NCBI GenBank assembly: GCA_021373015.1
Contig: JAJFTJ010000021.1
Location: 1-64,000 of the forward strand
DNA length: 64,000 nucleotides
Origin: Nitrospiraceae bacterium
Lineage (GTDB): Bacteria > Nitrospirota > Thermodesulfovibrionia > Thermodesulfovibrionales > UBA1546
Direction: 5' to 3'
Positions 9,984 to 56,263 of the stretch are shown in pieces. Within the stretch, counting starts at the first letter, position 1; the number at the start of each line of letters is the position of its first letter. The notes below the pieces were generated by a model. That model was not told the DNA's origin. It made no database searches and saw nothing but the letters and a program-made list of their open reading frames with translations. The position numbers were made by a program, and so were the translations under genes.

Positions 9984-10454
9984 TCAGTCCTCAAGACCTT
10001 CCTTGAATTTATTAAGCCATGTAATATGGGTTCTCTCTTCGTTTATAATCTCATCCACCACTTCTTTTTCTCTGATCCCGTCTCTTACTCCAATATAATA
10101 TAGCAGGGTTTCTTTTTCAAATCCTATTGCAAAATTAACAGCATCATTGACAGAATTAGTTTTTTTAAGAAAAGCAGTTGCCTTTTCCTCGCCAAGGAAA
10201 AAAGCCGATTCAACAACAGCCCTGAGATAATGTGAAACTTCTTCCCAGTTTTCAGGAGATTCATCTTTAACAAAATTCATTAAATCCTCGAACATTTTTT
10301 CATGTCTAAGCTCTTTAGAAGCAAGCGTTATAAAAAACTTTCTTGTTTCTTCGTTATCCTTAAATCTGTCTGCTAATGCAGTATAAAACTCATATCCTAG
10401 TTTCTCTGTCTGGACAGCCTGCTCAATAACCTCGCGTACAGAAAACATCATCAT
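9984..10454 (-). CDS. Ferritin-like (rubrerythrin-type) diiron protein
   Basis: The 156-residue all-helical protein has ferritin-like carboxylate/His motifs: EKLGYEFY (about 17-24), ELRHEKMF (48-55), GFEKETLLYYIGVRD and NEERTHITWL near the C-terminus. Together they make an ExxY / ExxH four-helix diiron site. The C-terminal rubredoxin domain of classical rubrerythrin is absent. The likely role is peroxide or oxygen defence, or iron handling, next to the oxygen-sensitive ferredoxin oxidoreductase with which it appears to be co-transcribed. Confidence 0.85.
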   Translation of the reverse strand: MMMFSVREVIEQAVQTEKLGYEFYTALADRFKDNEETRKFFITLASKELRHEKMFEDLMNFVKDESPENWEEVSHYLRAVVESAFFLGEEKATAFLKKTNSVNDAVNFAIGFEKETLLYYIGVRDGIREKEVVDEIINEERTHITWLNKFKEGLED

Positions 10455-10844: not shown

Positions 10845-11984
10845 ATGGGCTTGCACCTAACCGGACATTCTGTTTTGAAGCAACTCGAAAAACCCTCAGT
10901 CTACAACATAAAAAATGATGACCTTTATGAATTGGATCATGAGTCGTTTGAATTTTTAAGAAAATGTTCATCTGAACATGGATGTGATTTTGAGAATGAA
11001 GAATTCATAAACTACTGCATAAATGAAAATATTTTAACTAAAACTAAGACATGGAAGAATCATCCTGAAATTAAACAGTCTCCAATACCATCACTTAGAT
11101 ATCTAGAGTTACAGATTACTGACAGCTGCAATCTGCGGTGCAAACACTGCTATATTGAAAAACCAGATTCCATGGAACTTTCAACTCATCAAATTAAAAA
11201 AATATTACATGAGTTTCAGAAAATGCAGGGGCTAAGAGTTCTTATAACCGGAGGCGAGCCGCTGATCCATAGTAATTTTGACACGATTAATGATCTTCTC
11301 CCTGATTTCAGAATAAGAAAAGTACTTTTTTCTAATGGACTCTTAATCAGTAAAAAAATTCTCTCAAAACTTAATGTCGAAGAAATCCAGATAAGCATTG
11401 ATGGGCTTGAAAGCGGACATGATGCCCTTAGAGGAAAGGGAACATTTAAAAAAGCCTTTAACGCTTTAGAACTTGTGCTTAATCATGGATTAGATGCTTC
11501 AGTTTCAACAATGGCGCACTCTAAAAATCTTGGTGATTTTGATGAAATGCATAGATTATTTACAAAGATAGGAATAAAAGAATGGACAGTTGATGTGCCA
11601 TGCATAACAGGCAGACTGCAGAAATCCAGCGAGTTTTATATTTCTCCTGAAAAAGGCGGAAAATATCTTAGTTATGGTTATGGAGCGGGTCTTCATTCAA
11701 GCGAATCAGGATATGGATGTGGTCTGCACCTGATGTCAATAACAGCCGCAGGCAGCATTTCAAAATGCACTTTTTATTCTGCTGATCCAGTTGGTAAAAT
11801 TGATGACGGACTGGAAAAATGCTGGAAAAGAATTAAACCAATAATACTGGGATCTCTTCAATGCAATTGTGAATTTATAGAGACTTGCAGAGGTGGGTGC
11901 AGATACAGAGCAGAACTCTTTGGAAATGCTTTGGGAAAAGATCCGTACAGATGCGCTCTTTATATTGGATCACAACCTGCCTGA
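10845..11984 (+). CDS. Radical SAM/SPASM-domain protein
   Basis: The 379-residue protein has an N-terminal PqqD-like or leader segment (about 1-80), the radical SAM cluster motif CNLRCKHC (about 98-105), the SAM-binding GGEP (about 131-134) and a C-terminal SPASM region with many cysteines (CGLH...SKCTF...LQCNCEFIETCRGGCRYR...YRC), enough for auxiliary 4Fe-4S clusters. Such proteins modify peptides or act as maturases for redox enzymes. No precursor peptide or tailoring partner is visible nearby: the upstream gene is divergent, and the 3' end overlaps a convergent gene by 15 bp. The substrate is unknown. Confidence 0.88.
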   Translation: MGLHLTGHSVLKQLEKPSVYNIKNDDLYELDHESFEFLRKCSSEHGCDFENEEFINYCINENILTKTKTWKNHPEIKQSPIPSLRYLELQITDSCNLRCKHCYIEKPDSMELSTHQIKKILHEFQKMQGLRVLITGGEPLIHSNFDTINDLLPDFRIRKVLFSNGLLISKKILSKLNVEEIQISIDGLESGHDALRGKGTFKKAFNALELVLNHGLDASVSTMAHSKNLGDFDEMHRLFTKIGIKEWTVDVPCITGRLQKSSEFYISPEKGGKYLSYGYGAGLHSSESGYGCGLHLMSITAAGSISKCTFYSADPVGKIDDGLEKCWKRIKPIILGSLQCNCEFIETCRGGCRYRAELFGNALGKDPYRCALYIGSQPA

Positions 11985-13673
11985 TTTCAAGATAGAAATA
12001 ACAAGCCAGATTCCAAAAAGAAATGCAAAAATAAAAGCTAGAGTGCCTGGAATAGAAAAACCTGAAATTTCTGGGCCAACATGGAATGCATGCATAATTG
12101 ATGAACTCAGGATTATTGCACTGACAACAAGACTGAATGATATTCTATTTGTTGACTTATCCATGTCTTTTATAAATTTATCAAAGTCTGTATGTGTAAG
12201 CTTTACATGAATATCATCTTTCAGAATTTTTCTCATCAGATGTTTTAACTGACGAGGGAAAAGAGCAATAAAATCTGCGAATTCTTCGATATTGTTTTTT
12301 GTTTTTTCAAATATCCTTGAAGCGCTTATTTTTGTCTTTACAAATTTTATTGCATAGGGCTCTGCTGCCACGGCAAGATTAAAATCAGGGTCTAATTCTC
12401 TGCCGAGATATTCCAGAACAAGCATTGTCTTATTAACAAGCAAGAAATCTGAAGGCATTTTAATTTTGTGCTTTATTGCAATATGCAAAATAGCATCCAT
12501 ATACTGAGAAAAATTCAACTGGCCTACTGTAGTCTCATAAAGAGGCTCGGCAAATTCAACGATATCCGTTTTGAAATCTTTTTTAAAAGCAAAAACATCC
12601 ACATCATCGGGCACAAGTCCCATTTCAATATACTGATCAACAAGCTTGTCAAAATTTTTATTAATTAAAAATATGACTGTATCTGCCATATGTTCTCTGA
12701 GCTCAGTGCTAATGCTGCCGACAATACCAAAATCCATAAAACCTATCTGTCCAGAAGGCATTGCAAAAATATTGCCGGGATGAGGATCTGCATGAAAGAA
12801 ACCGTCTTCAAAAACCATCTTGAAATATGCATCAACGCCAATTTTTGTAAGATTTTTTTTATCCAATCCCATCCTATCGATCGACTCTATATCATCTATC
12901 TTTGCGCCGTTTATTTTTTCCATTACCAGAATTTTTTCTGTAATATACTTGCTATATAACTTAGGGAAATAAACATCCTTATTGCCTTGGAAATTCTTTG
13001 TAAACTTCAAACAATTTTTTGCCTCTTCGCAGAAATCAATTTCTTTTCTGATTGTTTTTGCGAATTCTCCTACAATCCCTACAGGATTGAAAAATCTGCT
13101 TTCAGGAAAATGTCTGTCTAATAGTTGTGCAATGGCATTTAGTATATTTATATCGGTTTCTATCTGTTCTCTTATGTCAGGTCTCTGAACTTTTATTACA
13201 ACATCGCTTCCGTCAAAAAGTTTTCCATGATGAACCTGTGCAATAGATGCCGCAGCAATAGGATTTTCATTAAATTCAGAGAAAATTTTATTCAGAGGCA
13301 GCCCTGTTTCTTCTTCTATGATTCTTTTTACCTGTTCACACGAAAATGGAGGAACTCTATCCTGAAGTTTTTTGAATTCATTCGCGTATCTGGTAGTAAT
13401 CAGATCCGGTCTTGATGACAGCAATTGACCTAGTTTTATAAAACTAGGTCCAAGTTCTGCAAAAGCCATCCTGAGCCGTTCAGGAACAGTGAGAACCTTA
13501 GGTTCAGGCCATCTGCCAAAAGTCTTGAGTCTTTTTATAATAGGGATGAACTTATGCAGACGAATCTGATCGATTAAATAACCAAATTCATATTTGAGGA
13601 AGACATTTACTATTTGTTTTAATCTTTTGAAGGTTCTGTATCTTCTTCCAAATTTCAAAAAACTTAAAGGCAT
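11970..13673 (-). CDS. ubiB: ABC1/UbiB-family atypical kinase
   Basis: The 567-residue protein contains the family motifs in order: FIKLGQLLSSRPDL (KxGQ), the alanine-rich PIAAASIAQVHHG loop, VVIKVQRP with the catalytic Lys, HADPHPGN and GFMDFG. Two hydrophobic helices close the C-terminus at about 515-560. UbiB-type ATPases support biosynthesis of ubiquinone or other polyprenyl lipids at the membrane. Length is normal. It follows the phasin-like gene by 12 bp, and its last 15 bases overlap the convergent radical SAM gene. Because the quinone type is unknown, the ubiB name marks the family rather than a proven role. Confidence 0.88.
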   Translation of the reverse strand: MPLSFLKFGRRYRTFKRLKQIVNVFLKYEFGYLIDQIRLHKFIPIIKRLKTFGRWPEPKVLTVPERLRMAFAELGPSFIKLGQLLSSRPDLITTRYANEFKKLQDRVPPFSCEQVKRIIEEETGLPLNKIFSEFNENPIAAASIAQVHHGKLFDGSDVVIKVQRPDIREQIETDINILNAIAQLLDRHFPESRFFNPVGIVGEFAKTIRKEIDFCEEAKNCLKFTKNFQGNKDVYFPKLYSKYITEKILVMEKINGAKIDDIESIDRMGLDKKNLTKIGVDAYFKMVFEDGFFHADPHPGNIFAMPSGQIGFMDFGIVGSISTELREHMADTVIFLINKNFDKLVDQYIEMGLVPDDVDVFAFKKDFKTDIVEFAEPLYETTVGQLNFSQYMDAILHIAIKHKIKMPSDFLLVNKTMLVLEYLGRELDPDFNLAVAAEPYAIKFVKTKISASRIFEKTKNNIEEFADFIALFPRQLKHLMRKILKDDIHVKLTHTDFDKFIKDMDKSTNRISFSLVVSAIILSSSIMHAFHVGPEISGFSIPGTLAFIFAFLFGIWLVISILKSGRL

Positions 13674-53372: not shown

Positions 53373-53774
53373 TTATCTTTTGTATTCCTTCTCAACAATT
53401 TTTTTTATTTCTTTGACAGAATAACCTTTTTTATACAATTCGAAAGCCCGCAGGGCTTCCCCAAGGCAGATGTCTCAGACAGAAGCATGAAGATCAACAT
53501 AACAGCTCAAGAGACTTATATGTTTTGATGCTGACTCCTCGCAAAAACAATAGCAGTATATACTGTCCAGAACCCATGGTATTTCTTTAGCCACACGGTA
53601 TGCTTCTTTTACTCTGGGATTTGCGAACTGACTAGGATCAAGGGTTGCTCTTTTTTCCCCTTTTCTAAGGGATTCATTCTTTTGTGTACCGGTATTTTTC
53701 TGAGCACAACACACATGCGGCAGAAAAACCATAAAAAAACATGACACGACTATAAATATAAGAATCTTCTTCAC
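53373..53774 (-). CDS. Putative selenoprotein of the PCYCGC family (in-frame UGA at residue 100)
   Basis: Ordinary reading stops at a TGA (53475-53477) after 99 residues. If it is read through, the frame stays open for 33 more codons to TAA at 53373, giving 133 residues with a signal peptide (about 1-24). Before the UGA come YCYCFCEE and HISLLSCYVDLHASV; after it DICLGEAL and the helix ending KKIVEKEYKR. In PCYCGC-family proteins the same stretch reads H-S...DCxxxHxxxCDxCLxxA, so UGA falls at the first Cys of the CxxC pair and would make a UxxC redox site. A fitting SECIS hairpin follows (53442-53460). It lies 26 bp after copA, same strand. Read-through is inferred, not shown. Confidence 0.75.
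53442..53460 (-). promoter_or_regulatory. Candidate bacterial SECIS element
   Basis: On the mRNA, GGAAGCCC (53453-53460) pairs with GGGCUUUC (53442-53449) as 8 bp (one G-U), with a UGC loop. The loop has G at its second position. The UGA is 22 nt before the loop, inside the 16-37 nt range known for bacterial SECIS elements, which SelB binds. Confidence 0.7.
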
Positions 53775-53800
53775 CTTTACCTCACACTAATAAAATATCA

Positions 53801-56263
53801 TTAAAGCCTTATTCTTCGCAATCTCAGGGCATTTGTCACTACTGATACTGAACTGAAACTCATTGCTAATGCTGCAAGCATTGGATTTAATAAAATTCCA
53901 AAGAATGGGAAAAGCACGCCAGCTGCAACAGGAATAAGAATTATGTTATAAGCAAAAGCCCAGAAAAGATTTTGCTTTATATTTCTTATTGTTGCCTTGG
54001 AAAGCGCAATTGCGGTCACAACTCCCTTAAGACTACCTTTTATCAGTGTAATGTCTGATGCTTCCATAGCAATGTCAGTCCCAGTGCCAATCGCAATTCC
54101 TACATCTGCTTGTGCAAGAGCAGGCGCATCATTAATGCCGTCTCCAACCATTGCAACAACCTTCCCTTCATTTTGAAGTTTCTTAATTTCCTCTGCCTTA
54201 TCTTCAGGAAGCACTTGCGCAAGCACTCTGTCGATTCCTGCAATACGAGCAATAGCATCTGCTGTTATCCTATTATCTCCTGTAAGCATTGCAACTTCTA
54301 TTCCGAGTTTGTGCAATGATTTTACAATTTCTTTGGATTCGGGTTTAATTGTATCTGCAACTCCAATTATCCCATGAACAATTTTGTCTACAACAACAAA
54401 CACCATGGTCTTGCCATCAGAGGCAAGAGTTTCAGCTTTTTGCTTCAAGCCATTGAATTTAATTCTCTCATTTTCCAACATTGCAGCATTCCCCAGAATA
54501 ACACTTTTGCTTTTTACATCTGCTTTTATGCCTTGACCAGGCACTGCCTGAAATTGGGAAGGTGTCTCTGGAGAAATACCATCAATTTCACGGGCTTTTT
54601 TGATTATTGCCTCGCCGAGTGGATGCTCGGAATTTTTCTCAGCAGACGCAGCATAAAAAAGAATATCTTTTTTTGTAACTGAACCAGACGTGATTATATC
54701 GGTTACTGATGGTTCGCCTTTTGTAAGTGTTCCGGTTTTATCGAATACAACCATATTGATTTTATGAGCAGTCTCCAGAGATTCACCTCCTCGTATAAGT
54801 ATCCCATTTTCAGCGCCCTTCCCTGTCCCGACCATTATTGATGTTGGAGTTGCGAGACCAAGCGCACAAGGACACGCAATTATCAGAACAGCAATTAGAT
54901 TGAGAAGCGCATATGTTAATGAAGGTTCTGGACCGAATAAAAACCATACAAGAAATGTTATGAGTGCAATTATCATTACAACAGGAACAAATACGGATGC
55001 AATTTTGTCTGCCATTCTTGCAATAGGAGGTTTTGAACCTTGAGCTTCCTGAACCATATTAATTATCCGACTCAACACCGTATCTCTCCCGACTCTTGTT
55101 GCCTCAAATCTAAAGGAGCCTGTCTTGTTTATCGTTGCGCCTATAGCGGAATCTCCAGTCTTTTTCTCAACAGGAATAGATTCTCCTGTTAACATTGATT
55201 CATCGACTGACGAATATCCGTCTTTTATTATTCCATCTACAGGAATTCTCTCGCCCGGACGGACTATAATTATATCTCCTATTTCAACTTCTTCTATAGG
55301 AATGTCTTTCTCAACACCATTTTTTAGTACTCTTGCAGTTTTTGCCTGAAGCCCCATTAATTTCTTAATAGCTTCTGAAGTTCTTCCCTTTGCCCTTGCC
55401 TCGAACATCCTGCCTAAAAGAATGAGTACGATTATCGCGGCGGCTGTATCAAAATATACTTCTGCGGAATAGCCTTTTATCTCGAATAAGGAAGGATAAA
55501 AAGCTGCAAAAACACTATATATATATGCAGCTGATGTACCCACTGCAATAAGCGTGTTCATATTAGTAGTTCTATGTTTTGCAGCGCTTATTGCGCCTTT
55601 ATAAAACTGCCACCCAATCCAGAATTGAACAGGTGTTTCAAGGATAAGCTGGATAATAAAATTAATCTTTTTAGGCAATGAAAAAATTTTAATGCCAAGC
55701 ATGTCCCAATATGCAAGTATGATTACAGGAATTGCAAGAACTGCACCTATTAGAACCTTCATCTTCAGATTCTGATAATGGGCTTCTCTCTCATGTTTTT
55801 CTTTTTCAACAATATCCTCGCCCTTGTCAACTGTCAAAACGTCGTAGCCTGCATCTTTTACAGCCTGCCTGAGTTCTCTAAGACCAATCTGAGAGGGAAC
55901 ATATTCTACTGTTGCTCTTTCGGTTGCAAGATTTACTGATATAGATACAACACCTTCCAGAGAACTTAATGCATCCTGTACTCGCTTAACACAAGCAGCG
56001 CAACTCATTCCTTTTATAGGAATCGTCTGTTTCGCGATAACAACGCTGTAGCCAAGGTCTTTTATTTTTTTTACAAAATCGCTAATAGATACACTAAGCG
56101 GATTATATAAAACAGTTGCCTTTTCAGCGGTAAAATTAACGCTGGCTTTGTTCACACCTTTCATACTGGATAGATTCGCTTCTATGCTTGCTGCACAAGC
56201 TGTACAGGACATCCCTGTAATTGGTAGATCGATCCTTTTTATCTCTTTATCTTCTTTATTCAT
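53801..56263 (-). CDS. copA: Copper-exporting P1B-type ATPase
   Basis: Two N-terminal HMA domains have [10 protein letters not shown] (about residues 18-27) and [10 protein letters not shown] (about 84-93). The membrane part of this 820-residue protein has the ion-binding CPC ([12 protein letters not shown]), and the cytoplasmic loops have [22 protein letters not shown] and [29 protein letters not shown] near the end gives the MxxSS signature of copper-type enzymes. It pumps Cu(I) out of the cytoplasm. The selenoprotein candidate lies directly downstream and a ThiF-like gene upstream (4 bp), in one operon. A CopZ-like chaperone is encoded at 40184. Confidence 0.95.

Follow-up and report, generated by a model that had tools for sequence, protein, structure and literature searches.

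A further member of the known CYCXC/OS_HP4 selenoprotein family, probably exported, encoded directly behind a CopA-type ATPase gene in a Nitrospirota genome

The DNA analysed here, referred to below as the window, is a stretch of 64,000 nucleotides from a Nitrospirota genome. On its minus strand, a reading frame opens with GTG at 53774 and runs for 99 codons to a TGA at 53477-53475, and the same frame then stays open for 33 codons to a TAA at 53375-53373. The gene for a CopA-like ATPase lies on the same strand and ends 26 nt upstream of the GTG. The features of the locus are as follows.

53801..56263, minus strand: copper-translocating P1B-type ATPase, CopA-like, with two HMA domains (TIGR01511, 656.9 bits against a cut-off of 397; TIGR01525)
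53779..53783, minus strand: likely Shine-Dalgarno sequence GAGGT, 5′ of the GTG start (from the sequence)
53373..53774, minus strand: complete CDS of a CYCXC/OS_HP4 selenoprotein, 133 aa, Sec100, GTG start, TAA stop at 53375-53373
53703..53774, minus strand: probable Sec-type signal peptide, residues 1-24 (hydrophobic N-terminus and A-Q site in the alignment)
53475..53477, minus strand: in-frame TGA, selenocysteine codon (Sec100 of UxxC; TGA in 11/11 same-family matches; U in 60 and C in 23 of 84 homologues)
53442..53460, minus strand: bSECIS-type hairpin of 8 bp with a UGC loop at 53452-53450, its stem starting 14 nt and its loop 22 nt past the UGA

Translation confirmed the statement of the original prediction that the frame remains open for 33 codons beyond the TGA as far as the TAA; standard gene calling, as also stated there, ends at the UGA and yields a protein of 99 aa. 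The readthrough product has 133 residues with a hydrophobic N-terminus and the UGA as residue 100, and its C-terminal part reads ...HASVUDICLGEALRAFELYKKGYSVKEIKKIVEKEYKR. It contains the motifs CYCFC at residues 74-78 and UDIC at residues 100-103. A24-Q25 is invariant in the alignment of close relatives, and this A-Q site and the hydrophobic N-terminus suggest that residues 1-24 are probably a Sec-type signal peptide.

The protein matched PF13798 (PCYCGC) with 43.2 bits against a gathering threshold of 25, which bears out its proposed assignment to the PCYCGC family. It also matched the NCBIfam model NF041379 ('OS_HP4_CYCXC, CYCXC family (seleno)protein') with 119.7 bits against a cut-off of 90, covering positions 2-90 of the 90 in the model, and it has both CYCXC/OS_HP4 motifs, CYCFC at 74-78 and U/C-x-x-C at 100-103. 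The claim that this is a new selenoprotein did not stand: with the NF041379 cut-off passed and UxxC listed in two reviews, the family is the known predicted selenoprotein OS_HP4/CYCXC. Table 1 of one of them, from 2026, has the entry 'CYCXC family protein (hypothetical protein OS_HP4), PF13798, UxxC' (PMC13188914), and the other enters OS_HP4 with the motif UxxC (PMC9312934). The source of OS_HP4, as cited in PMC13188914 (its ref. 60), is the work of Zhang and Gladyshev (2007) on the Olavius algarvensis Delta 1 symbiont. Because the family was previously known, the word 'new' can apply at most to the gene itself, which is a solid further example of a known selenoprotein family and not a discovery. 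Its model, truncated by standard gene calling, is now corrected.

The window protein and OS_HP4 of the Olavius algarvensis Delta 1 symbiont share the NF041379 family, the UxxC motif and a single Sec. The symbiont is deltaproteobacterial, whereas the host here belongs to Nitrospirota and has the gene directly behind that of a CopA-type ATPase. The Parageobacillus lipoprotein AOT13_14730 (PMC13068155) has in common with the window protein the PF13798 domain, a CYCxC-type motif and additional conserved cysteines. However, AOT13_14730 is a Cys-only Bacillales lipoprotein adjoining an Fe3+ substrate-binding protein, while the window protein contains Sec and its putative signal peptide has no obvious lipobox. 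Sec also occurs in heavy-metal-linked proteins, namely the UxxU metal-binding protein NF041115, Sec-containing cation ATPases and MerT-like proteins (PMC13188914, Table 1), although these belong to different families.

Selenocysteine insertion at this codon presupposes selA, selB, selD and tRNA-Sec, and all four were found in the host genome, which is 1.69 Mb in size and 100% complete according to its record. The tRNA-Sec scored 69 bits, above the Rfam cut-off, and ARAGORN confirmed it, with anticodon TCA; SelB and SelA scored 382.8 and 610.7 bits, respectively, and SelD is present with one in-frame TGA. The TGA of this SelD (L018, G000:C14:134970-135890) lies near the N-terminus (AAGUAGKVGP), and the host SelD is likely to be a selenoprotein itself.

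The hairpin that follows the UGA, GGAAGCCC-UGC-GGGCUUUC, has a 3-nt loop with G at loop position 2 and a folding energy of -10.4 kcal/mol. The bacterial SECIS model calls for a loop of 3-9 nt, a stem of 4-16 bp, G in the first two loop positions, a distance of 16-37 nt from the UGA and an MFE of -7.5 or lower (PMC13188914), and the hairpin conforms to it. When 1500 TGAs were picked at random from the window, 11 (0.7%) were followed by a conforming hairpin. TGA is the stop of 16 of the 73 ORFs in the window, and of the 16 TGA-ended ORFs with a length of 80 aa or more, only the selenoprotein ORF is followed by a conforming hairpin; it is therefore the sole ORF that combines a hairpin with at least 33 open downstream codons. 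An Rfam scan around the gene returned chance matches only, with no SECIS family among them.

An ungapped alignment of the 51 nt from the UGA onward in 58 Sec forms showed the eight hairpin pairs to be formed in 95.2% of cells, a level reached in 0 of 500 shuffles, and pairing fell to 64-67% when the partner was slid by one column. Both sides had changed in 16 cells, and such changes affect three of the pairs; columns 21/33, for instance, go from G-C to A-U, and columns 24/30 from C-G to U-A. In 22 Cys forms, by contrast, the same columns were 46.6% paired, which is no higher than the shuffled level, and a similar peptide is encoded without the hairpin. The fact that the hairpin is kept with covariation in Sec forms and lost in Cys forms indicates that it belongs to the Sec genes and does not stem from the protein code. 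The fit to the bSECIS model and the covariation thus lend support to the earlier claim of a hairpin with the right geometry.

Searching 296 genomes of the phylum together with named Nitrospirota/Thermodesulfovibrionia MAGs gave 84 non-redundant Nitrospirota homologues. A homologue was present in 11 of 16 genomes of the host's own family, with TGA in every case. In the column of residue 100, U (TGA) occurred in 60 of the 84 homologues, C in 23 and an unreadable NGA in one; the exchange of Sec and Cys is thus exact and confined to one column, which agrees with the prediction that the UGA takes the place of the first Cys of a CxxC pair. The NGA, with its ambiguous base right at the Sec position, belongs to genome G123 (L064/L153), where SelB is present and the hairpin is intact. 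Past the UGA, protein-level conservation of the frame extends to about 80 homologues, and the Cys forms run through it without interruption; the invariant residues among 64 sequences include C74, C76, H85, C91, H96, U/C100 and C103. On a tree of 80 homologues about three Sec/Cys exchanges are needed, at least two of them forced by well-supported branches. SelB above the cut-off was found in 46 of 48 genomes with a Sec form and in 5 of 18 with the Cys form only (Fisher p = 3.7e-8, with genomes treated as independent of phylogeny); its absence from two Sec-form MAGs, G009 and G056, is most simply explained by incomplete assemblies. These genomes offer a natural experiment, in which one protein exists in Sec and Cys forms and a SECIS accompanies the former only.

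It is virtually certain, judging from these comparisons, that the TGA at 53477-53475 is a selenocysteine codon and that the recoding is real. The best overall explanation of the locus, to which we assign a probability of about 0.93, is an exported CYCXC/OS_HP4 selenoprotein with Sec100, for which a periplasmic metal or thiol function is proposed. Sec would be inserted at residue 100 by SelB and charged tRNA-Sec acting with the bSECIS hairpin that closely follows the UGA, while in the absence of selenium translation would stop at 99 aa. Once its signal peptide is cleaved off, the protein would be expected to act in the periplasm.

Several neighbours of the Sec forms point to copper. CusC/CusB/CusA-type genes lie within 5 kb of 18 of the 50 Sec loci, and a metal gene cluster (efflux, P-ATPase, YHS-reductase or Met-rich) lies within 5 kb of 24 of 50 Sec loci compared with 1 of 23 Cys loci, with about half of the Sec loci having no metal gene nearby and with neighbourhoods that share phylogeny and are not independent. 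Of 12 sampled genomes that have a CusA/CzcA above the cut-off, 9 have such a gene within about 4 kb of the selenoprotein gene, the sample having been picked partly because CusCBA had already been seen there. The Cys forms adjoin other genes, ResB/ResC-like and SmpB-like. The invariant set of Cys, His and U residues could bind a soft metal, and from the gene neighbourhood and the conserved thiols and His we infer that a role like that of the copper chaperones CusF/CopZ may be played in the periplasm. The selenol/thiol pair of UxxC, with the conserved C74-x-C76-x-C78, H85, C91 and H96, might handle Cu(I)/Ag(I); alternatively, the UxxC protein might keep periplasmic thiols reduced during metal stress. 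Either way it would work beside copper export, through CopA here and CusCBA in many relatives. We think it most likely, at about even odds, that this selenol/thiol protein acts in the periplasm in copper handling or thiol redox. What the gene may add beyond the known family is a lead on function, by which a family of 'hypothetical proteins' would gain its first testable role, the handling of copper or of periplasmic thiols.

A different emphasis is possible, though we regard it as tentative: UxxC may be a CcmH-like selenothiol:disulfide centre for periplasmic cysteines, as in apocytochrome c, and copper export would then be linked to it only secondarily, through the attack of copper on such thiols. 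In a profile comparison with CcmH (PF03918), a thiol-disulfide protein of cytochrome c maturation, U100-x-x-C103 was aligned to the RCxxCQN site with a probability of 65-74%, whereas 42 control families gave 6.6% or less; the UxxC falls on the CxxC active site, and a helix and a G-x-S-x-x-E-I-like motif come after it. This alignment, however, spans just 34-35 columns and requires a gap of 13 residues, and the window protein differs from CcmH in its extra CYCxC half, so that the similarity is remote. A Pfam search with the window protein gave no match to PF03918 and thus does not place it in CcmH. The AlphaFold2 model has a mean pLDDT of 84, with most 10-residue blocks from residue 41 onward above 95. 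A Foldseek search of this model against the PDB produced no significant match, the second match being the N-domain of CcmH (E 4.4), and a PDB sequence search with two profiles gave no match up to E = 10. The CcmH and PCYCGC domains occur in a natural fusion with cytochrome c (L158), but this is one case. Finally, six Cys-form loci adjoin cytochrome c biogenesis genes that are ResB/ResC-like (named from sequence inspection), and a thioredoxin-like gene is present at most of these loci, but the window gene has no ResB/ResC neighbours. A proposal for CYCXC/OS_HP4 as a whole, in which a periplasmic function in selenol/thiol redox or in Cu(I) handling, exerted together with CopA/CusCBA, is combined with a UxxC distantly related to CcmH and with at least one paralogue that is now UxxU (G280, L145), is more doubtful and rather unlikely to hold in full.

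The UGA might instead be an ordinary stop, leaving either a 99-aa protein with chance similarity downstream or a pseudogene. Standard gene calling does end there, TGA is a normal stop in the window, and genomes G005 and G006 keep remnants of the gene only. Nevertheless, the post-UGA frame is conserved and, in the Cys forms, read through, and the hairpin covariation is confined to Sec forms; the conservation of the frame across Sec and Cys forms refutes this explanation, which is highly improbable. Least probable of all is that the UGA is translated as a different amino acid (UGA = Trp) or that TGT/TGC was misread as TGA in sequencing: the window sequence alone would look the same as for Sec, but homologues without TGA have Cys and never Trp in this column, many window ORFs end at TGA, and error is excluded because 60 separate homologues carry the TGA.

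Besides the selenoprotein gene, two minus-strand ORFs of the window that end at TGA and have long open extensions were considered as selenoprotein candidates and rejected, a rubrerythrin-like one (9984-10454) and an ABC1 kinase (11970-13673). Neither has a SECIS-like hairpin, and in both the family match is confined to the part before the TGA; their TGAs were therefore taken as ordinary stops.

The remnants in G005 (L031/L159) and G006 (L032) consist of the last 40-45 codons including the Sec codon; G006 has kept the hairpin intact, whereas that of G005 is damaged, and a YHS/thioredoxin-reductase-like gene follows the G005 remnant. In eight Cys-form loci (L129, L143, L127, L128, L152, L108, L135 and L146), an SmpB-like gene, named by inspection, is located directly upstream. 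Genome G280 has a paralogue with two in-frame TGAs (L145:5879-6214; G280:C1:1192438-1192707), in which HAAAUNLUQDEA gives UxxU (UNLU) in place of UxxC, a form absent from the OS_HP4 family entry in PMC13188914; this is a single case from a single-contig MAG, and sequencing error is possible. The same contig carries the fusion L158 (5600-6568, minus strand, G280:C1), a protein of 323 aa in which the cytochrome c, CcmH and PCYCGC domains all score above their Pfam cut-offs.
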